Virus record (IMG/VR): IMGVR_UViG_3300036852_000742
Coordinates: 17,121 to 81,120 of that record
Reading direction: 5' to 3' (one strand)
Origin: a virus
DNA length: 64,000 nt
The position numbers and the translations under genes were made by a program. This document shows, in pieces, positions 3,425-63,200 of the stretch (its first letter is position 1; each line of letters begins with the position of its first letter). A model generated the notes under the pieces. It did not search any database and was not told where the DNA came from. It saw only the letters and a list, made by a program, of their open reading frames with translations.

Positions 3425-4453
3425 TCACGCCGATTTCGCCGCCGAGAACATGGCGTGCCGACTGCGACTGGGGACTGCCGAGACAACGCGGACAGGGTCC
3501 ACGGCATCATCCCCAACCTGCTCAGAGCGACACGGACCACAGCTCCCCTCGAACTGCCCGCGATGGCCACGCCTGCACGGAGCCCGCGCCGGGGCAGGCA
3601 CATCCGGCGCAGGGAGCGTGCCCAGGTTCTCAGGCTGTAGCCGCCACCGAGCCGCGCCGAACACCGTCGACGCCGAGTCGTACCGCTCGCCGAGGATCCC
3701 GGCCAACAGCTTCGGCGACCAACCAGCGTCCAGTGCGTTCACAACCAGCCCAGCCAACTCGGCAGCGTTCGCCCCCCGTGGTTGGCGGGCCTTCGGCACC
3801 GACGCCAGCCGGTACGCGTCCGCAAGGACGATCTCTGCCGTCTCGGTTTGCTCCAGGGTTGGCACCACCACCTCCACCGGTTCGATTGGTGGTTGGTCGG
3901 TGAGCGTCTCTGGCTGTGGTGGTGGTGGTTCTAGGTCTTGGTTCTTCTCAACTACTAGTTCTTCTTCTCTATGTGGTGCGGATGAGCCATTTATGGGTGA
4001 GCCGTCGACGGATGAGCCATGGATGGCTGATCCGTGTATGGTTCCGTCCCAATCGTCTGTTTCGTTACCACCCCCCTGTAACTGGGGCATGGTCTGACCT
4101 GCGAAAACGGGCCGGAAGCTGACGTCCCACCGCCAGACGAACTTGCCAGTCTCAGGATCGTTGGTTCGGGTCTGTCGTAAATGTCCACGATTGCGTAGGC
4201 CGCGCAGCACCGTATCGACTGCTGCCCTCCCCAACTCCGGGGCGAGCCTGTCAATCCGCTGCCGGGAGCACCTGTACCCCGACTTCATCGTCAGCAGCGC
4301 CGCGAGCAGCGCCCGCTCACGCAGCGTCATCCCTTGGAAGCTGACACCAAGAGCCTTGTCGTCGTCGCCACGGTGGAGAGCGTTCGGCGAGATCAGGTAC
4401 CTGTCGGCGAGGGACTCGGCAAACACCGCAATCTCGATGTCGCCGCCGCTCAC
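3425..4453 (-). CDS. Winged-helix protein, possible replication initiator
   Basis: This is a 342-residue protein. The N-terminal ~110 residues have the pattern of phage replication winged-helix domains: TLRERALLAALLTMKSGYRC, then SRQRIDRLAPELGRAAVDTV and LRNRGHLRQTR. A linker of alternating GSxIHGSS/GSxINGSS-type repeats and a Pro/Glu-rich stretch follow (about 140-220), then a C-terminal helical region. The start is a GTG at 4453. N-terminal DNA binding with a disordered linker fits replication initiators or helicase loaders of the DnaD type, but no diagnostic motif settles it. The gene is alone between an RHH regulator and an HNH gene. Confidence 0.6.
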   Translation of the reverse strand: MSGGDIEIAVFAESLADRYLISPNALHRGDDDKALGVSFQGMTLRERALLAALLTMKSGYRCSRQRIDRLAPELGRAAVDTVLRGLRNRGHLRQTRTNDPETGKFVWRWDVSFRPVFAGQTMPQLQGGGNETDDWDGTIHGSAIHGSSVDGSPINGSSAPHREEELVVEKNQDLEPPPPQPETLTDQPPIEPVEVVVPTLEQTETAEIVLADAYRLASVPKARQPRGANAAELAGLVVNALDAGWSPKLLAGILGERYDSASTVFGAARWRLQPENLGTLPAPDVPAPARAPCRRGHRGQFEGSCGPCRSEQVGDDAVDPVRVVSAVPSRSRHAMFSAAKSA

Positions 4454-4596
4454 GATGCCCCTGCCCAGCTACGGCAAGGGGAACTCGGTGTAGTCATCTG
4501 CGCGACTCCCTTATCGATGGGGTCGCGTGCGAGAAAATCACCAAGTACACTGAAGGTGGACTTGGGTTCCCCCCCACGCATGGCTGCGAGGTCCAT

Positions 4597-4635
4597 GCTC
4601 TCGCCGGATGCGGATCCGGCGAGAGCAGTTTTTTT
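4597..4635 (+). terminator. Strong intrinsic terminator on the plus strand, no plus gene upstream
   Basis: Arms GCTCTCGCCGGAT (4597-4609) and ATCCGGCGAGAGC (4614-4626) pair perfectly over 13 bp with a 4-nt loop and are followed by AG and seven T (4629-4635). The T tract is on the plus strand only, while every gene nearby is on the minus strand. The 195 nt between 4454 and 4648 hold no convincing ORF. Confidence 0.8.
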
Positions 4636-4648
4636 GCCTACGCGCAGG

Positions 4649-4882
4649 CTATGCCGCGTCGACCTGGTTGGTGGTCTGTTCGCCGGGATCGGCGATCCCG
4701 AGCCGGTCCAGCTCGGCAAGGAGTAGGTCCCGCAGGAGCCCCGAGCGGCTGACCCGGCCACCTTCACACACGACGTCCATCCGGCGTAGCTCATCGTCGT
4801 GGAGGGTTAGACCGACCTGATTGGTGCGTCTGGGCATGGTGCTTCGGCGTGGTCCTCTACGCCTGGCCGGGTCTTCATGCAT
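4649..4882 (-). CDS. Ribbon-helix-helix (CopG/Arc-like) DNA-binding protein
   Basis: This is a 77-residue protein. Residues ~22-60 read VGLTLHDDELRRMDVVC followed by SRSGLLRDLLLAELDRL: one beta strand and two helices, as in ribbon-helix-helix repressors. The N-terminus is Arg-rich. The ATG at 4882 follows GGAGGAGGT at ideal spacing. Such proteins bind operators as dimers and often repress their own promoter. It may act as a phage repressor or control nearby early promoters. A degenerate copy of the phage promoter lies about 40 nt upstream. Confidence 0.7.
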   Translation of the reverse strand: MHEDPARRRGPRRSTMPRRTNQVGLTLHDDELRRMDVVCEGGRVSRSGLLRDLLLAELDRLGIADPGEQTTNQVDAA

Positions 4883-4920
4883 GGGCGACCTCCTCCATGA
4901 TCTTCGGTCTTGTCAACGAT

Positions 4921-4949
4921 ATACTACCGTTGGTGGTTGCGGGACCCCC
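4921..4949 (-). promoter_or_regulatory. Degenerate promoter-like site upstream of the RHH gene
   Basis: On the minus strand TAGTAT (4921-4926) is preceded by a CCCGCAAC stretch resembling the CCCCGCAAC of the promoter at 57261. The -35 hexamer at 17-nt spacing is GGGGGT, so the match is partial. It could be a weak promoter for the 4882 gene. Confidence 0.3.
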
Positions 4950-5319
4950 GAACCGGACACGCCGGCCGACACCATCCCAGTTCCCCGGATGTCGCTCTGG
5001 GCGTTCCTGTACCCTGGCCCGTGTTCCCCTGCGCGTCCGGGGGGCCGATGGCAGGGGCCGCTGCGTACAACACGACCCTGCTGGTGGCGGCGCTACCCGG
5101 CTGGCCGTCACCTGACCGGACCCCACGCGCAGAATCCGCCCCACCGCCCAGACGGGCGGTGGGGCGGATCTGGTTTTGCGGCCGGTACAGCAGACAAGGG
5201 CAGGGCCCCGACGGGTCGCCGTGCAGGCACCGTGTGCGTACCCGCTCACCACGGCGGGTGCCGATGTGATGGACGGCCCGAAGGTGCCCACACACGCACA
5301 GCGGGTACGGGCCGGTCAC
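4924..5319 (-). CDS. Small zinc-ribbon-like ORF with doubtful C-terminus
   Basis: The GTG at 5319 overlaps the stop of the tandem-HTH gene (TGTGA), which suggests coupling. The first ~45 residues hold CVCGHLRAVHHIG and RCLHGDPSGPCPC, a plausible Cys/His zinc site seen in small actinophage proteins. After that the frame runs through a long GC hairpin (5138-5166) and composition becomes irregular. The true product may therefore end early, or the end may be frameshifted. Function unknown. Confidence 0.4.
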   Translation of the reverse strand: MTGPYPLCVCGHLRAVHHIGTRRGERVRTRCLHGDPSGPCPCLLYRPQNQIRPTARLGGGADSARGVRSGDGQPGSAATSRVVLYAAAPAIGPPDAQGNTGQGTGTPRATSGELGWCRPACPVRGSRNHQR

Positions 5320-26229: not shown

Positions 26230-26249
26230 CCCCCGTCTAAGGGCGGGGG
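26230..26249 (-). other. Right-end hairpin of the IS605-type element / omega-RNA scaffold end
   Basis: Stem CCCCCG (26230-26235) with CGGGGG (26244-26249), 8-nt loop. In IS605 elements the RNA from the 3' end of tnpB through the right end acts as the guide RNA of TnpB. The guide would be the sequence just outside the element, toward 26200. Confidence 0.6.
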
Positions 26250-27460
26250 ATTCCAACTGCAAGCGGTTGAGGTTCACGGGCGCTCAACGCCTTGCGGCGT
26301 GTCGCCCCTCCGGCACGAGACGGTTGTCTCGGGACTGGTGTGCAGTCCTGTCCTGCCGCGATGTTGATGCTGGCGTTGTGGTCGGCGTTGCAGGTAAAGC
26401 CGCAGGCGGTGCAACAGAATCGGGCTTGGCTCTCGCGCGAGTTCTTGTCGATCCATCCGCAGGCACTGCAACGCAGGCTGGTGTAGGCGGCTTTGACTTT
26501 CTGGACGCGGCCGGGGGCTTTGTCTTCGGTGCGCCGGGCGAGCATGCCCCACCCGGACGCGAGGATGGCCCGGTTCAGGCCGGCCTTCTGCCGGACGTTG
26601 CGGCCGGGGCTATCGACGGTGCCCCTTGCGGTCGCGGTCATGTTCTTGATCCGCAGGTCTTCGAGGCGGATCACGTCGAACCGGCGGGCGAATGCGGTGC
26701 TGGTTTTCTCGGTCCAGTCCTTGCGGATGTCCGCCTCGCGTGCCTTGAGCCGTGCGATCCGCTGACGCTCAACCTGCACTACCTCGGACCGCTTCGGTGC
26801 CCGAGCCTTGCGCCGTTCTGCCTTACGCAGTCGGGCCCGCTCTTTGCTGGACAGGCGAGGGCAGGCCAGTGTTTCGCCCGTGCTCAACGCGGCCGTGATG
26901 GTCACGCCCCGGTCGACGCCGACAACCGTTCCGTTTCCGGGAGACTCGATCGGGTCGGGGATGACCGCGAACGCGACGTGCCAACGCCCGGAGCGGTCAC
27001 AGGTGATGCGGTACGACTTGCATGCCGCAACGGATCGCGACCAGCGGAACCGAACCCAGCCAACCTTGGGAACCTTGACCTGACCCCAGTGTCGGTTCAG
27101 CCGTTGGACATGGAGTCCGAAGGTGAAGTCGGTGATCCGGAAGCCTTCGTGGACGTACTTGCTGCGCCACGTCGGCCGCATGTGGGCGCCCGTAAAGAAG
27201 TTGGCCATGGCTTGGGCGTAGTCGCGCAGAGCCTGTTGCTGGACGTTAACCGAACCGGCGGCGAGCCACGGCTCGGCGGTGCGCGCTTCGGTGAGTTGGC
27301 GGCACTGGACGACGAAGCTGGGGGCCGACCGACGGGCACGCGCGGGCGTCCACCACGCTCCCTGTTCAACGGCCAGATTCCAGACGTACCGGGCGTCACC
27401 GCAGTGCGACAGAAGGGTCGCCTCCTGCGCCACGGTCGGGTACAGCCGATACCTGGACAT
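26237..27460 (-). CDS. tnpB: TnpB RNA-guided nuclease (IS200/IS605 family OrfB)
   Basis: This is a 407-residue protein, normal length for TnpB. RuvC-I is TVVGVDRGVT with Asp183, RuvC-II is DVIRLEDLRIKN with Glu267, and the zinc finger is CSACG (Cys331/334) with CCTACG (Cys350/353). RuvC-III is CNADHNASINI with Asp360. All three catalytic acids are intact, unlike the Cas12m-like protein nearby. The start is taken as MSRYRLYP at 27460; the open frame extends upstream without a sensible start. TnpB cuts DNA guided by omega-RNA and helps the element persist at its site. The gene interrupts the lysis region. Confidence 0.92.
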   Translation of the reverse strand: MSRYRLYPTVAQEATLLSHCGDARYVWNLAVEQGAWWTPARARRSAPSFVVQCRQLTEARTAEPWLAAGSVNVQQQALRDYAQAMANFFTGAHMRPTWRSKYVHEGFRITDFTFGLHVQRLNRHWGQVKVPKVGWVRFRWSRSVAACKSYRITCDRSGRWHVAFAVIPDPIESPGNGTVVGVDRGVTITAALSTGETLACPRLSSKERARLRKAERRKARAPKRSEVVQVERQRIARLKAREADIRKDWTEKTSTAFARRFDVIRLEDLRIKNMTATARGTVDSPGRNVRQKAGLNRAILASGWGMLARRTEDKAPGRVQKVKAAYTSLRCSACGWIDKNSRESQARFCCTACGFTCNADHNASINIAAGQDCTPVPRQPSRAGGATRRKALSAREPQPLAVGIPRP

Positions 27461-27488
27461 GGAACCATAATAGCACCATGATGGTCCC

Positions 27489-27638
27489 ATGAAGCATGTG
27501 AACCTGCGCCTACCCGACGACGTCCACGAGGCAGTCAAAGCAGCCGCCGAACACGACCGACGTTCCCTCAACAGCATGCTGATCGTCCTCATCGAGCGAG
27601 CCCTCACGGCAGACCGTCCAACCTCACCCCCGCCCTGA
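27489..27638 (+). CDS. Ribbon-helix-helix (Arc/HicB-like) protein of the tnpB element
   Basis: This is a 49-residue protein: MKHVNLRLPDDVHEAVKAAA, then EHDRRSLNSMLIVLIERALT. One strand plus two helices with RSLNSM is the classic Arc/CopG ribbon-helix-helix pattern. It is divergent from tnpB with only 28 nt between starts, so it may repress the shared promoter region. A TTCATGGGACCATC-type stretch between them is a possible operator. It probably travels with the element. Confidence 0.75.
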   Translation: MKHVNLRLPDDVHEAVKAAAEHDRRSLNSMLIVLIERALTADRPTSPPP

Positions 27639-58633: not shown

Positions 58634-60100
58634 TCAGTCTCGGTGAGCACTGATCGCCTTGGTCTCTAGATAGTGCCCGAGCCCTTCTGGCCCCAGCTCC
58701 CGCCCGATGCCAGAGTCTTTGTATCCACCCAGCGGGGTGTTCACGCCGATCGGCGCACCGTTGACCTGGACGGTACCGGCCCGGATCTGACGGGCCAGAC
58801 CTCCGGCGCGGTACGAGTCGGAGGTCCATACACCTGCGTCGAGTCCGTACGGCGAGTCGTTGGCCAGGTCGACAGCCTCCTGGTCGGAGTCGAACGGGAT
58901 GACGGCCAGGACCGGGCCGAAGACTTCCTCCCGGGCGATCGGCATGGCGTTGTTGACACCGGTGAAGATGGTCGGCTGCACGTACCAGCCTGTGTGCAGC
59001 CCGGCCGGGCGTTGGCCGCCACGGACCAGGGTCGCACCGGCCTCTACTGCGCCGTGGATGTAGCGCTCGACCTGATCGCGTTGTCGTTTGCTGACCAGCG
59101 GCCCGACCTCGGTGACCGGATCGGTCGGGTCGCCGATCGGCATGCTGTCCACCAGCCCGACGAGCCGGTCAACGAACTGGTCATGTAGGGAACGGTGGAC
59201 CAGCAGGCGGGTGTGGGCCGAGCAGATCTGCCCCGTGTTGGCCAGGGACGCGCCCTTGAGCGCGGGCACGACCTGATCCAGGTCGGCGTCGTCACAGATG
59301 ATCGCCGCCGATTTGCCACCAAGCTCCAGCGACACCCGCCGCAGGTTGTCCCCGCACATGGCGGCGATGCGCCGGCCGACGGCGGTCGACCCGGTGAACG
59401 CGACCTTGTCAACATCGGGATGGGCGACCAGGTACTCGGCGACCACCCCGTTGCGGCGCACCGGGACAACGTTGAGCACCCCGGCAGGCAAGCCCACGTC
59501 GTCACACACACGGGCCAGCAGCATCGCGTCCAGAGGCGTCTCAGCGGCCGGCTTGACCACTACTGTGCAACCCGCCAGCAGGGCCGGGGCCAGCTTCATG
59601 ATGATGGTCTTCTGCGGCATGTTCCAGGGCACGATCGCGGCGACGACTCCCACCGGCTCACGGATCACTAAGGCGCTGCCGGTGGCGTCATCTCGGCGCT
59701 CTGCCCAGGTGTACCGGCCGGCCAGGTCCACGTAGTACCGGAGGATCGCGACCGGATCCGGGACCTGCCGGGTCTTCGACCAGGTGATCGGGCAACCCAT
59801 CTCGGCGGTAATCAGTTCGGCCATCGTGTCGGCGTACCGCTCGTACAGGGTGACGATGCGGGACAGGACACCGGCCCGGTCGACTGGGCTGGACCGGGGC
59901 CAGACACCCTGATCGAACGCCCGCCGGGCGGCCGCCACAGCCCGATCAACGTCGCCTCGACCAGCGTCGGGAACGTACCCGAGGGCCTGTTCGGTCGCCG
60001 GGTTGACGACCGTGACCGGATCTGCGGTGCCGACCGGCTGGCGCCAGGCCCCGTCGATGTACAGCCGGTCGTACGTGAGCAGGTCCGGGGCGAGCGCCAT
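58634..60100 (-). CDS. Aldehyde dehydrogenase (NAD(P)-dependent)
   Basis: This is a 488-residue, full-length ALDH. IVPWNMPQ (cofactor and oxyanion Asn), FTGSTAVGRRI (NAD-binding turn), LELGGKSAAI (catalytic Glu) and NTGQICSAHTR (nucleophile Cys) are all present, as are EEVFGPVLAVIPFD and NDSPYGLDAGVW. It oxidises an aldehyde to an acid; the substrate is not evident. It ends 22 nt from the convergent early genes and starts 4 nt after the ParB-like gene. A complete metabolic enzyme of this size is unusual in a phage and is probably cargo. It looks intact. Confidence 0.92.
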   Translation of the reverse strand: MALAPDLLTYDRLYIDGAWRQPVGTADPVTVVNPATEQALGYVPDAGRGDVDRAVAAARRAFDQGVWPRSSPVDRAGVLSRIVTLYERYADTMAELITAEMGCPITWSKTRQVPDPVAILRYYVDLAGRYTWAERRDDATGSALVIREPVGVVAAIVPWNMPQKTIIMKLAPALLAGCTVVVKPAAETPLDAMLLARVCDDVGLPAGVLNVVPVRRNGVVAEYLVAHPDVDKVAFTGSTAVGRRIAAMCGDNLRRVSLELGGKSAAIICDDADLDQVVPALKGASLANTGQICSAHTRLLVHRSLHDQFVDRLVGLVDSMPIGDPTDPVTEVGPLVSKRQRDQVERYIHGAVEAGATLVRGGQRPAGLHTGWYVQPTIFTGVNNAMPIAREEVFGPVLAVIPFDSDQEAVDLANDSPYGLDAGVWTSDSYRAGGLARQIRAGTVQVNGAPIGVNTPLGGYKDSGIGRELGPEGLGHYLETKAISAHRD

Positions 60101-60104
60101 CCTT

Positions 60105-60662
60105 CTACACCGTCCATCCGTTGTTGAACCCAGACTGGGCGGCCCGCTTGAGCATGTCACCCCGGTCCGCGAGACGGTCGACCTCCTCCTCGTCCATCTC
60201 CAGCCGCCGGCCGATCTCTTCCGGGGTCATCCCGAGCCCGAGCAGGTCCGCCACGATGTCAGCCATCCCCAGGACATGGTGGGTGCCCCGGGCCCGGTTG
60301 TGGCGCACGGTCGCTAGCCGGGCGAGCGCCTGGTCCGGCTGCACCAGCTCAACCGTCGGCACATACCCGGCGGTAAGCGCGAACACCTGCGGGTCGGCTG
60401 AGGCCATCCATCGGTGGTAGCCATCCACGATCTCGTAGAGTGGCCCGGCCCCGTCTTCACCCTCCTCGTGGATCACGATGGGCTGGGTCCAGCCATTCTC
60501 CAGGATCGACTTCCTGAGCAGCCGACGCTCAGGCGGTGCGGCCTGGTTCGGGTTCCATGTGTTCGCCCGTAGCCGGTCGCGTGAGATCCACCGGACCGTA
60601 GAGATCGGCTGGCAATCGACCGCCGCCGAAGCCTCGCTTGTTGAGCCGATGAAGCTCGTCAT
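60105..60662 (-). CDS. ParB/Srx-like (IbrB-type) protein with re-created N-terminus
   Basis: This is a 185-residue protein. The ParB_N core is visible: STVRWISRDRLRANTWNPNQ, SILENGWTQPIVIHEE, YEIVDGYHRWMA, and HNRARGTHHVLGMADIVADL followed by a helix-turn-helix-like end (GMTPEEIGRRLEMDEEEVDR). Proteins of this type are paired with PAPS-reductase-like IbrA proteins in phages and prophages. Its first ~45 codons overlap the endonuclease gene by 134 nt in a different frame. A second, divergent copy of the same N-terminal segment stands at 61169-61255. It appears functional. Confidence 0.8.
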   Translation of the reverse strand: MTSFIGSTSEASAAVDCQPISTVRWISRDRLRANTWNPNQAAPPERRLLRKSILENGWTQPIVIHEEGEDGAGPLYEIVDGYHRWMASADPQVFALTAGYVPTVELVQPDQALARLATVRHNRARGTHHVLGMADIVADLLGLGMTPEEIGRRLEMDEEEVDRLADRGDMLKRAAQSGFNNGWTV

Positions 60663-61134
60663 AGCATTCCCACTCTTCTGGTCCATACGCGGTCCAGGCC
60701 CGCCCATAGCCTCGGCTGCTGACCCGTCCGAGCGCGTCGATTGTTGCCTGATCCAGCCGCAGCTTGAGGAATCGCAGGAGTACTTGCCAGTGTTCGCGTT
60801 TCGTCACCGCGTACGGCATGACCGCCTCGGCCATCAGGATGGCGTCGATCATCCGATTGACCCGAAGGTGGAAGGCGTCCTGGTGTTTCTCCGGCTTCTT
60901 CTCCTGGTAGGTATAGGCGAGACCCCGGGCGCCGAGCGCTACCAGGACGTTGCCGGCATGACGGATCGTCCGCTCGCAGGTCATACAGAGCTGGAGACGG
61001 ACCATTATCGAGGTCGCGCGGCCTTCGATGCGCTCGCCGCGCCCGTTGCGCTTGTTTTGCGCGCCGAGGCCGATCGACCCTTCGCCATCCCAAAGCCCGG
61101 CTAGCCATGCTCGCTCTGCCACTGTCGCTGTCAT
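60529..61134 (-). CDS. LAGLIDADG homing endonuclease
   Basis: This is a 201-residue protein. LAGLWDGEGSIG near residue 10 is the LAGLIDADG helix with its catalytic acidic end; RVNRMIDAILMAEAVMPYAV and ALGRVSSRGYGRAW follow in the typical alpha/beta layout. Only one clear LAGLIDADG motif is seen, so it probably works as a dimer. It lies between ibrA-like and ibrB-like genes and its C-terminal ~45 codons double as the new 5' end of the ParB-like gene. It probably cleaves ParB-like genes lacking the insertion. Confidence 0.85.
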   Translation of the reverse strand: MTATVAERAWLAGLWDGEGSIGLGAQNKRNGRGERIEGRATSIMVRLQLCMTCERTIRHAGNVLVALGARGLAYTYQEKKPEKHQDAFHLRVNRMIDAILMAEAVMPYAVTKREHWQVLLRFLKLRLDQATIDALGRVSSRGYGRAWTAYGPEEWECYDELHRLNKRGFGGGRLPADLYGPVDLTRPATGEHMEPEPGRTA

Positions 61135-61168
61135 TTGCACACCGTACTATCAAGGTGCGACTAAACCG

Positions 61169-61255
61169 GTTCCAATCGTTTGCGGACAACGTCTCCCGGG
61201 GCACCCACTCGACGCGGGTCACTGGCTGGGTGTCGACAGATACGGCAGTGGTCAT
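61169..61255 (-). pseudogene. Displaced 5' fragment of the ParB-like gene
   Basis: The ATG at 61255 overlaps the stop of the IbrA-like gene. It encodes 29 residues ending RVEWVPRETLSANDWN, which match 12 of 23 positions of the ParB-like N-terminus (TVRWISRDRLRANTWN). Homology stops exactly after the final Asn; the frame then runs on through the endonuclease region without meaning. It is the original start of the ParB-like gene, cut off by the homing gene. Confidence 0.75.
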
Positions 61256-62601
61256 TCGGCGACAGGCTCTCGGGCGTAGGGCGGAACAAGGGCGTGCGGG
61301 TCGGCGGGCTGACGGCCGGGGTGCGCCAGGTCGCCGAAGGTGCCGTCGGTGATCACAGCGGTCAGGTCTTTGGCGTAGCGGTGCCAGTACTTGGGGAGGG
61401 TCCGGCCCTGGTCGTCGGTCATTAGCCGGCCGCCGGTTTGTTTCCGGTTTTTGAAGTCGCCGCGCATCGCAAGCATGAGGAGGAAGTCCCAGGACAGGCC
61501 TGTGCCCGGGTGCGGCGCGGTGGGTGCGATCGGGTCGGTGGTCTTGCGGTAGTGCAGGGTGATCTCGTCCCGGCAGCGGGCGGCGATGAACGCTGACTCG
61601 GTGGGCCGGAACTGCTCCAGATAATGGACGATGAAATCGGGCCAGGGCATGCCGGCGGGTTTGTCGGGCCGGCCCCGGTACGAGTACAGCTCGGTCAAGG
61701 CGTAACGGGACGCTGCCCCAACACCTGGGACACGATCGACCATTTTTTCCCACACGTCCGGGAAACACTGGGCATAGGTGTGGATCTTCTGGAGGGGTTC
61801 CTCACCGAACGCGGGTGAGCAACGCTGGGTGCTCCGGCCAAGGCCGGCCATCTCCAGCCGGTCGTAGGCCCGGTTGTAGTCCCACCCTTTCAACGCGGGG
61901 GCGGTCCATACGTCGTCGGTGGTCCAGTCATAGACCGGGTACGCCTTCCACAGGTTCCCCTGTGATGTGCCAGATGAGTCGAACTTGGTCAGGTAGTTGA
62001 GTTCCCGCCCGGTCTTGGTCACCGCCCTACGCCGTGTCAACGACTCCTGCGCCCGAATGCCCATGAACATGACGCAGTTACCGAGCCGGGGCGGGAACAG
62101 CAACCCGTTGGTGTCGGGTGCGGACAGGCGCGCCTCAGGCGGGTCGATCGGGAACCCGTCCAGGGTCACAAGCGCTTCATCGGGCAACGGCCGGCACCAC
62201 AGGTCGCGGGCCTCCGGCGCCCACGGCCACCAGTACGGGCTCTTACGCGAGCAGGCGTTGCGGTGTTTGAGAGGCAGGCAGTACCACTCCAGGTTGACGT
62301 CGCCGCGTTGGGCGATGCGCCGGACGTACTCCACGGTCTCGAACGGGATGGCTTCCTCGTCCTGGAAGAATGCCCGCAGCGGCAGGTGCCGTTCGTAGCG
62401 CGGGTCGGAGTGGGCTACCTCAAGGACGACCTGCAAGGTGGCGGTGGAGTCTTTGCCGCCGCTGAACGCGACCGCGACGTGGTCGAACCGGTCCAGCACG
62501 AGGGCTGTCCGTTCCAGCGCGAGGGTGTACACATCAGTGTCGAGCGGTCGCTGGCGGAGTGTTGCTTTGGCCTTCGCCGCAGGTGGGGGTTGCTGTTTCA
62601 T
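61252..62601 (-). CDS. IbrA-like PP-loop ATPase (PAPS reductase/DndC family)
   Basis: This is a 449-residue protein. FSGGKDST (47-53) is the PP-loop; LPLRAFFQDEEAIPFETVEY, MFMGIRAQESLTRRRA, AYPVYDWTTDDVW and a distal RCSPAFGEEPLQ are typical of the IbrA/PAPS-reductase-like group. Such enzymes adenylate a substrate; IbrA with IbrB (ParB-like) is known as a prophage regulator pair, and DndC relatives act in DNA phosphorothioation. It overlaps the amidotransferase gene by 4 nt upstream and the ParB fragment by 4 nt downstream. Confidence 0.85.
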   Translation of the reverse strand: MKQQPPPAAKAKATLRQRPLDTDVYTLALERTALVLDRFDHVAVAFSGGKDSTATLQVVLEVAHSDPRYERHLPLRAFFQDEEAIPFETVEYVRRIAQRGDVNLEWYCLPLKHRNACSRKSPYWWPWAPEARDLWCRPLPDEALVTLDGFPIDPPEARLSAPDTNGLLFPPRLGNCVMFMGIRAQESLTRRRAVTKTGRELNYLTKFDSSGTSQGNLWKAYPVYDWTTDDVWTAPALKGWDYNRAYDRLEMAGLGRSTQRCSPAFGEEPLQKIHTYAQCFPDVWEKMVDRVPGVGAASRYALTELYSYRGRPDKPAGMPWPDFIVHYLEQFRPTESAFIAARCRDEITLHYRKTTDPIAPTAPHPGTGLSWDFLLMLAMRGDFKNRKQTGGRLMTDDQGRTLPKYWHRYAKDLTAVITDGTFGDLAHPGRQPADPHALVPPYAREPVAE

Positions 62602-63200
62602 ACGGTCACCGCCGCGTCCTCGGCTACCGGTCGGGCATCGGGATGGAACGCCCACGATGACAGGTAAGTACCGACGTTGGTCGCCAGACGGTGCAGCGGG
62701 TGGTAGCGGCGGTGGGCGTACATCTGGCCGTCGACGTCGAGCACGACGACAACCCATGATCGGGCGGTGAACACGGCGGCCAGCTTGGCGAGGGTGTCCG
62801 TTGGTGGCACCCCGTGGCCGCGCATCGCAGCGTACGCGGCGGCGAGGGCGTACGAGTCGGTGATCGCGTCTGGTGCCAGGTCGTCAGGGTTGTCGATGAC
62901 CCCGTTGTGCGCGACGGCGTGCGCTCCGGCCAGCGCCGGCTGTAGCTGCTCCGGCGCCTGCCAGTCCCCGACTGTGGCCAGCCGGGCGTGACCAAGGACA
63001 CGGGTGTCGGTGATGGCGGTGAGGGCGTCACGGTGTGGGCCCAGCGGCCCCAGGTGGCGTACACAGACCGGCGGCGTCCCGGGGTTGTATGTGACCCAAC
63101 CACAGCCGTGGGGCCCGCGACGTCCAGCACCCTCCGCCGCTGCCAGCAACAGTTGCGGGTCGGGCGGGCCGACGCCGGTGTAGGCGAAGATCCCGCACAT
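62598..63200 (-). CDS. Class II glutamine amidotransferase
   Basis: This is a 200-residue protein. It begins MCGIFAYTG, so Cys becomes the N-terminal nucleophile after Met removal. RRGPHGCGWVTYN, LGHARLATVGDW and HAVAHNGVIDNPDDL are the glutamine-binding motifs of class II (Ntn) amidotransferases. It should release ammonia from glutamine. It stands alone, without a fused synthetase domain, between two PP-loop enzymes and overlaps both genes, so a PP-loop partner probably supplies the acceptor. Confidence 0.88.
   Translation of the reverse strand: MCGIFAYTGVGPPDPQLLLAAAEGAGRRGPHGCGWVTYNPGTPPVCVRHLGPLGPHRDALTAITDTRVLGHARLATVGDWQAPEQLQPALAGAHAVAHNGVIDNPDDLAPDAITDSYALAAAYAAMRGHGVPPTDTLAKLAAVFTARSWVVVVLDVDGQMYAHRRYHPLHRLATNVGTYLSSWAFHPDARPVAEDAAVTV

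Follow-up and report, generated by a model that had tools for sequence, protein, structure and literature searches.

A phage homing endonuclease gene that appears to split ibrB and to bring a replacement for its 5' end

Background

Homing endonuclease genes (HEGs) usually spare their targets by sitting in an intron, in an intein or between genes. Replacing the broken end of the gene is a third way, and the locus described here raises the question of whether a phage HEG has taken it. The window, by which we mean the whole stretch of 64,000 nucleotides that was analysed, is the end of an IMG/VR virus record of 81,120 bases (IMGVR_UViG_3300036852_000742); it encodes tape measure and head genes, hence a tailed phage. 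An initial annotation claimed that a HEG splits a ParB-like gene of this phage, ibrB, and supplies it with a new start. This claim is supported by the homology of two N-termini, by flanks that join in frame, by HEG-free relatives and by a second phage, L037 (L numbers designate the compared loci). The reading that we favor, and hold to be very probable, is intronless homing of a LAGLIDADG HEG into the ibrB gene of a tailed phage, with an element that carries a replacement 5' end: the identity of such a system is well supported, and its activity is predicted.

Results

Organization of the locus

On the minus strand, the order is ibrA, an orphan 5' end of ibrB, the HEG, and a rebuilt ibrB:

61252..62757, minus strand: ibrA-like gene with a PAPS-reductase domain, upstream of the insertion (Pfam PAPS_reduct, E 2e-9; DUF3440)
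61168..61255, minus strand: orphan native ibrB 5' end, 29 codons, MTTAVSVDTQPVTRVEWVPRETLSANDWN, recognized by its profile score and its native position beside the ibrA stop
60551..61167, minus strand: inserted element, composed of a 33-nt leader, the HEG and the replacement ibrB 5' end
60529..61134, minus strand: HEG, single-motif LAGLIDADG, 201 amino acids, AWLAGLWDGEGSIG
60529..60662, minus strand: overlap of the HEG 3' end and the rebuilt ibrB 5' end, 134 nt, ibrB in frame +1 relative to the HEG
60551..60662, minus strand: replacement ibrB N-terminus, MTSFIGSTSEASAAVDCQPISTVRWISRDRLRANTWN, with homology to the orphan as well as to the N-termini of native IbrB
60105..60662, minus strand: rebuilt ibrB with a ParB_N domain, 185 amino acids from the ATG at 60662 (Pfam ParB_N, E 6.6e-5)

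The coordinates and content originally given for these parts hold, with the break of the orphan now placed at 61168. The ibrA stop overlaps the start codon of the orphan, the ATG at 61255 (ATGA), and the orphan stops after GATTGGAACC, its last nucleotides being TGGAACC. The HEG starts at the ATG at 61134 or at the GTG at 61140, and stops at 60529; no match to a sigma-70-type promoter was found for it. Three candidate ATGs for ibrB lie within the HEG, at 60707, 60686 and 60662, all in a frame that continues to 60105. A start at the last of them gives a +1-frame overlap of 134 nt with the 3' end of the HEG, in agreement with the overlap first described; the two earlier starts are possible, and the rebuilt gene is predicted to be translated. 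The ParB_N match of the rebuilt protein is slightly below the Pfam curated score, and an alignment of 12 members of the IbrB family contains many invariant columns.

Between positions 58637 and 64000, an aldehyde dehydrogenase gene follows ibrB, an order shared by L025; upstream of ibrA lie genes for a class-II glutamine amidotransferase and for a second PAPS reductase. The genes of this region possibly form a conserved phage pathway. Elsewhere in the window, positions 26240-27592 hold a transposase gene (phrog_506).

The endonuclease

Relatives of the HEG are located in L030, in L031/L012 (a prophage of Streptomyces cavernae), and in L034, L036, L037 and L182; the HEG of the window is 36-47% identical to the five of them that were compared pairwise. 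Family members keep the motif AWLAG..DGEGS, LAGLIDADG_3 of Pfam is recognized in each of the six members tested (best E 1.7e-6), and the family profile matches variants of I-OnuI with an E-value of 3e-5. The AlphaFold2 model of the window protein (pLDDT 82.5) is matched by Foldseek to I-MsoI and I-CreI, with an E-value of about 3e-7 (2.9e-7) and a probability of 1.00. Motif, Pfam match and model agree on a LAGLIDADG helix with its catalytic acidic residue and on an alpha-beta-beta-alpha-beta-beta-alpha fold. The single motif implies that the enzyme would work as a homodimer of the I-CreI/I-MsoI type. The HEG is free-standing: it has its own start codon, no intron in Rfam and no Hint domain match. 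An intein was rejected, as stop codons divide the parts and no Hint domain is matched. As a side remark, the family phrog_5046 is labelled HNH endonuclease, yet it matches all six LAGLIDADG HEGs, and the label looks wrong.

Two N-termini for one gene

The N-terminal ParB segment is present twice, as had been noticed at the outset. The orphan and the rebuilt N-terminus are identical at 11 of 22 residues, a value matched by none of 20,000 shuffles; counting the final Asn reproduces the 12 of 23 first reported. Scored with a profile built from 71 native IbrB N-termini, the orphan reaches 45.4, within the native range of 34.7-58.6 and above shuffled DNA (17.3 at most). When the flanks of the element are joined, TGGAACC to CGAACC, they yield an in-frame IbrB of 177 amino acids, MTTAVSVDTQPVTRVEWVPRETLSANDWNPNQAAPPE..., which is an ordinary length. 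The join falls at a 7-nt repeat, TGGAACC, and the insert measures 617 nt between the ends of the left and right copies.

Among native N-termini, the orphan is best matched by that of L009, a HEG-free locus that is also the closest to the ibrA of the window (65% identity; the ibrA tree leaves out the row of L031), and the IbrB body of the window groups with those of L017, L009 and L010. Because ibrA, orphan and body share the neighbourhood of L009, all three look native to this phage, and the HEG and the second N-terminus look imported. We also compared the regenerated N-terminus with other phage lineages, as the initial annotation had proposed: it is more similar to related actinophages (L015) than to distant phages, although it is too short for lineage placement, and a remote lineage is not indicated.

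The same break point in a second phage

L037 is a phage of 42% GC whose IbrA is only about 42% identical to that of the window. Its ibrA stop is followed at once by MLSYKLPESRIQGKEAQPVNIVEWIHRDNLHANNY, which is interrupted before NPN, and on the other side of the HEG ...GKDAQPVNTVEWIHRDILHGNSYNPN is fused to the body of ibrB. The insert is 626 nt long, compared to 617 nt in the window, and the two N-terminal copies are identical at 17 of 22 residues. In codon terms, the break points of the two phages are at most 4 nt apart, at the codons of a conserved motif, N-x-[W/Y]-N-P-N. L037 is thus, to judge from these comparisons, an unrelated or remote phage with the same event at the same spot, independent of the window. 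Since it repeats both the structure and the break point, an assembly error or a one-off scar is unlikely.

Relatives with and without the endonuclease

Seven HEGs (window, L030, L031, L034, L036, L037 and L182) lie directly upstream of a gene with a ParB domain, six of them with a long +1 overlap. These six, window included, sit between ibrA and ibrB, with their 3' end overlapping the 5' end of ibrB. The seventh, in L182 (2450-4719), is flanked by a Dam-like methylase gene and by an ordinary ParB gene distinct from ibrB, which it overlaps by 8 nt, and there is no orphan; the motif RPNSWNPN occurs within 24 codons of the start of this ParB gene. The feature that the HEG loci share is a ParB motif N-x-W-N-P-N just downstream.

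In L030, L031, L034 and L036 the HEG and the overlap are present, without an orphan: a search in the first three returned nothing above chance, and a marginal signal in L036 (p 0.035) was left uncounted. Given these four ibrB-linked members, the orphan is not an obligatory product; and since most members (the same four and L182) are without one, clean replacement by co-conversion is apparently the commoner outcome.

The distribution of the HEG among ibrB loci is patchy. Relatives with an uninterrupted junction do exist, as the original reading required: about 70 distinct loci, L009 and L014 among them, are HEG-free with a short, direct ibrA-ibrB junction. No duplicated ibrB N-terminus was found in HEG-free loci. 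Apart from the Streptomyces cavernae prophage, no further member of the HEG family was found in 394 class-level and 392 genus-level genomes; none was found in plasmids, and phages returned a single weak match to an annotated LAGLIDADG protein. The HEG tree is poorly resolved, and a grouping of the window HEG with those of L031, L034 and L036 is not rejected (p 0.29); we therefore dropped the idea of a phylogenetic proof of exchange. Exchange of the HEG between remote phages is no more than suggested by the identities.

Two other arrangements were observed at these loci. Spacers or unrelated ORFs of several hundred nt separate ibrA from ibrB in L016/L131, L024, L167, L175, L177 and L178, so the junction is a recurrent insertion site. 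Two or three tandem copies of ibrA precede ibrB in L009, L014, L015 and L034.

A near-identical pair with and without the element is formed by L036 and L014, a HEG-free relative with an uninterrupted target: they are 96% identical, with most of both flanks at 96-100%. L036 has lost the first native codons of its ibrB and carries in their place the HEG and the ibrB start that comes with it. Identity to L014 falls to 72-88% over about 300 nt on the right side of the HEG, then is again mostly 96-100%; the first part of this divergent tract is closest to the HEG-bearing L034 (86%, versus 82% to L014). Such a tract, seen at this one locus, is the trace that would be expected of homing with co-conversion. 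The site reads KNLWNPN in L034 and L036, and in none of 72 HEG-free loci. We considered recoding of the target as a general form of immunity and rejected it: P, G and S do occur at the position of this K among HEG-free loci, the window keeps its Ala, and the K of L034 and L036 is at most suggestive. With an unaltered Ala codon at the site, the window gives no evident sign of immunity by recoding.

The overlapping frames

The +1 relation between HEG and ibrB recurs in L030, L031, L034, L036 and L037. The dual-coded overlap had been called unusual, and this stands in part. An open +1 frame across the last 44 codons of the HEG is kept in 28% of codon shuffles, thus an open frame is ordinary by itself; what is unusual is that a conserved ParB N-terminus is encoded there. 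A strong dual constraint over the overlap was rejected. The last confident helix of the HEG model (residues 152-168) ends at LNKRG, and the tail that follows has a pLDDT of about 50 and is predicted to be disordered; near LNxRG of the HEG and QP of ParB, the ParB frame takes over the constraint from that of the HEG, so that the core of the endonuclease ends where the conserved part of ParB starts.

Alternative explanations

Flanks that join in frame at a 7-nt repeat, together with the fact that HEGs often reside in group I introns, bring to mind a mobile intron: splicing at TGGAACC would join the orphan, as a 5' exon, to the body of ibrB, leaving the second N-terminus incidental. However, Rfam finds no group I or group II match in the window locus, L030, L036, L037 or L182, and neither the group I catalytic core nor 5'U..G3' boundaries were found by the search and by inspection of the ends: the putative ends have neither the terminal G of group I nor the GTGYG start of group II. 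Moreover, an intron leaves unexplained the six loci in which a second conserved ParB N-terminus is fused in frame, four of which have no orphan that could serve as a 5' exon. We thus consider an intron very unlikely, in agreement with the original reading, in which none is involved. The possibility of two original ParB-like genes flanking the HEG, the first of which was later truncated, has in its favor that both copies are bona fide IbrB N-termini. But ibrA is directly followed by just one ibrB in about 70 distinct relatives, no relative beyond L037 has two ParB N-termini, and the orphan halts at precisely the point from which the body of the second copy carries on in the same frame, which leaves this explanation with a negligible probability.

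There is also the possibility that the HEG was a resident of the ibrA-ibrB interval, and that the orphan arose later or separately, by tandem duplication or as a recombination scar rather than by HEG cleavage. The four related loci with the order ibrA, HEG, ibrB and no orphan agree with it, and in L037, where the copies are identical at 17 of 22 residues, a local duplication is conceivable. This reading must nevertheless accommodate orphans that end at the same codons in two remote phages, window copies that differ at 11 of 22 residues, and HEG-free loci in which no duplicated N-terminus was found; we regard it as unlikely. An assembly chimera of HEG-bearing and HEG-free phage haplotypes comes to mind for a contig that is a virus record, known here from assembly alone; yet the independent contig L037 has the same structure and break point, and the near-isogenic comparison of L036 and L014 reveals a genuine HEG insertion, so that a chimera is extremely improbable.

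Discussion

A possible mechanism

Under intronless homing, the HEG would cut ibrB at the conserved N-x-[W/Y]-N-P-N codons, a target site that we infer from the two break points, in the window and in L037. The break would be repaired from a HEG-bearing copy, and the HEG would enter together with the ibrB 5' end of the donor. This 5' end, overlapping the HEG 3' end in the +1 frame, would re-form ibrB with the body of the recipient, without intron or intein. If recombination on the left side took place in shared sequence, the old 5' end would be cleanly swapped, as in L031, L034, L036 and L030; if joining on the left took place at the cut, the former 5' end would be stranded as an orphan, as in the window and in L037. 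With its left half-site changed, the rebuilt ibrB would presumably no longer be cleavable.

Engineered home-and-rescue gene drives exist, and the element of the window would be their natural counterpart. Somewhat short of an even chance, in our estimate, is the broader conjecture of a natural drive of this kind: a HEG family that targets a ParB motif, carries an overlapping, cleavage-resistant 5' end, and invades remote phages, and even a second ParB family (L182), without cost to the gene that it enters.

Comparison with known systems

The nearest system in the literature is that of fungal mitochondria, where HEGs are known that replace the C-terminus of a gene: atp6 of Allomyces macrogynus, and atp6, atp9, cox2 and nad3 of Glomus sp. 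(PMC3630166). They share with the window a free-standing HEG, usually LAGLIDADG in the fungi, that splits a protein gene, a foreign replacement end, a native remnant and a hybrid rebuilt gene (PMC3630166). A remnant native end and a divergent replacement end also flank the HEG in the window and in L037, at the N-terminus; C-terminal replacement, with the gene upstream of the HEG, is not found in the window. Thus the fungal HEG replaces a 3' end in mitochondria and lies after the gene (PMC3630166), whereas that of the window replaces a 5' end with its start codon, in a phage, and lies before the gene and overlaps it in another frame. In the literature that we searched, whose coverage was partial, gene-end replacement is C-terminal and belongs to fungal mitochondria, and we found no description of a phage HEG that replaces an N-terminus. 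The window and L037, as independent cases in which an N-terminus is replaced at shared codons from an overlapping start, would extend the strategy to phages.

Intronless homing is known in T-even phages, for segF and gene 56, segG and gene 32, and mobE and nrdB (PMC2988022). The window has in common with them a free-standing HEG beside its target, break repair with co-conversion, as proposed here, and the overlap of a neighbouring ORF. The T-even HEGs, unlike that of the window, are of GIY-YIG or HNH type and lie between intact genes, with no gene fragment left; their overlaps are of at most about 24 nt, with the upstream gene (PMC2988022), compared to 134 nt with the downstream gene in the window. 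Phage genes split by HEG insertion, mobE in nrdA of Aeh1 and mobA in gene 60 of T4, share a HEG within a coding gene, but there the two fragments persist and their proteins reassemble (PMC2988022), whereas the 5' fragment of the window is made redundant by the replacement.

The hidden endonucleases of the ShiLan type are also ORFs of actinophages that overlap their target in another frame, without intron or intein (PMC11855218); there, the insert is read through in the frame of the target, whereas the target gene of the window is restarted. A closer parallel is found in a second LAGLIDADG ORF of L037 (4450-4995, in an insert at 4376-4995), which is located within ibrB, following ...GWTQPIVIREPE. 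No stop closes the ibrB frame anywhere in this second insert, an outcome seen in 1.2% of codon shuffles, and ibrB resumes at EIIDGYHRW. This second HEG resembles the ShiLan type, with a LAGLIDADG endonuclease in place of the HNH endonuclease.
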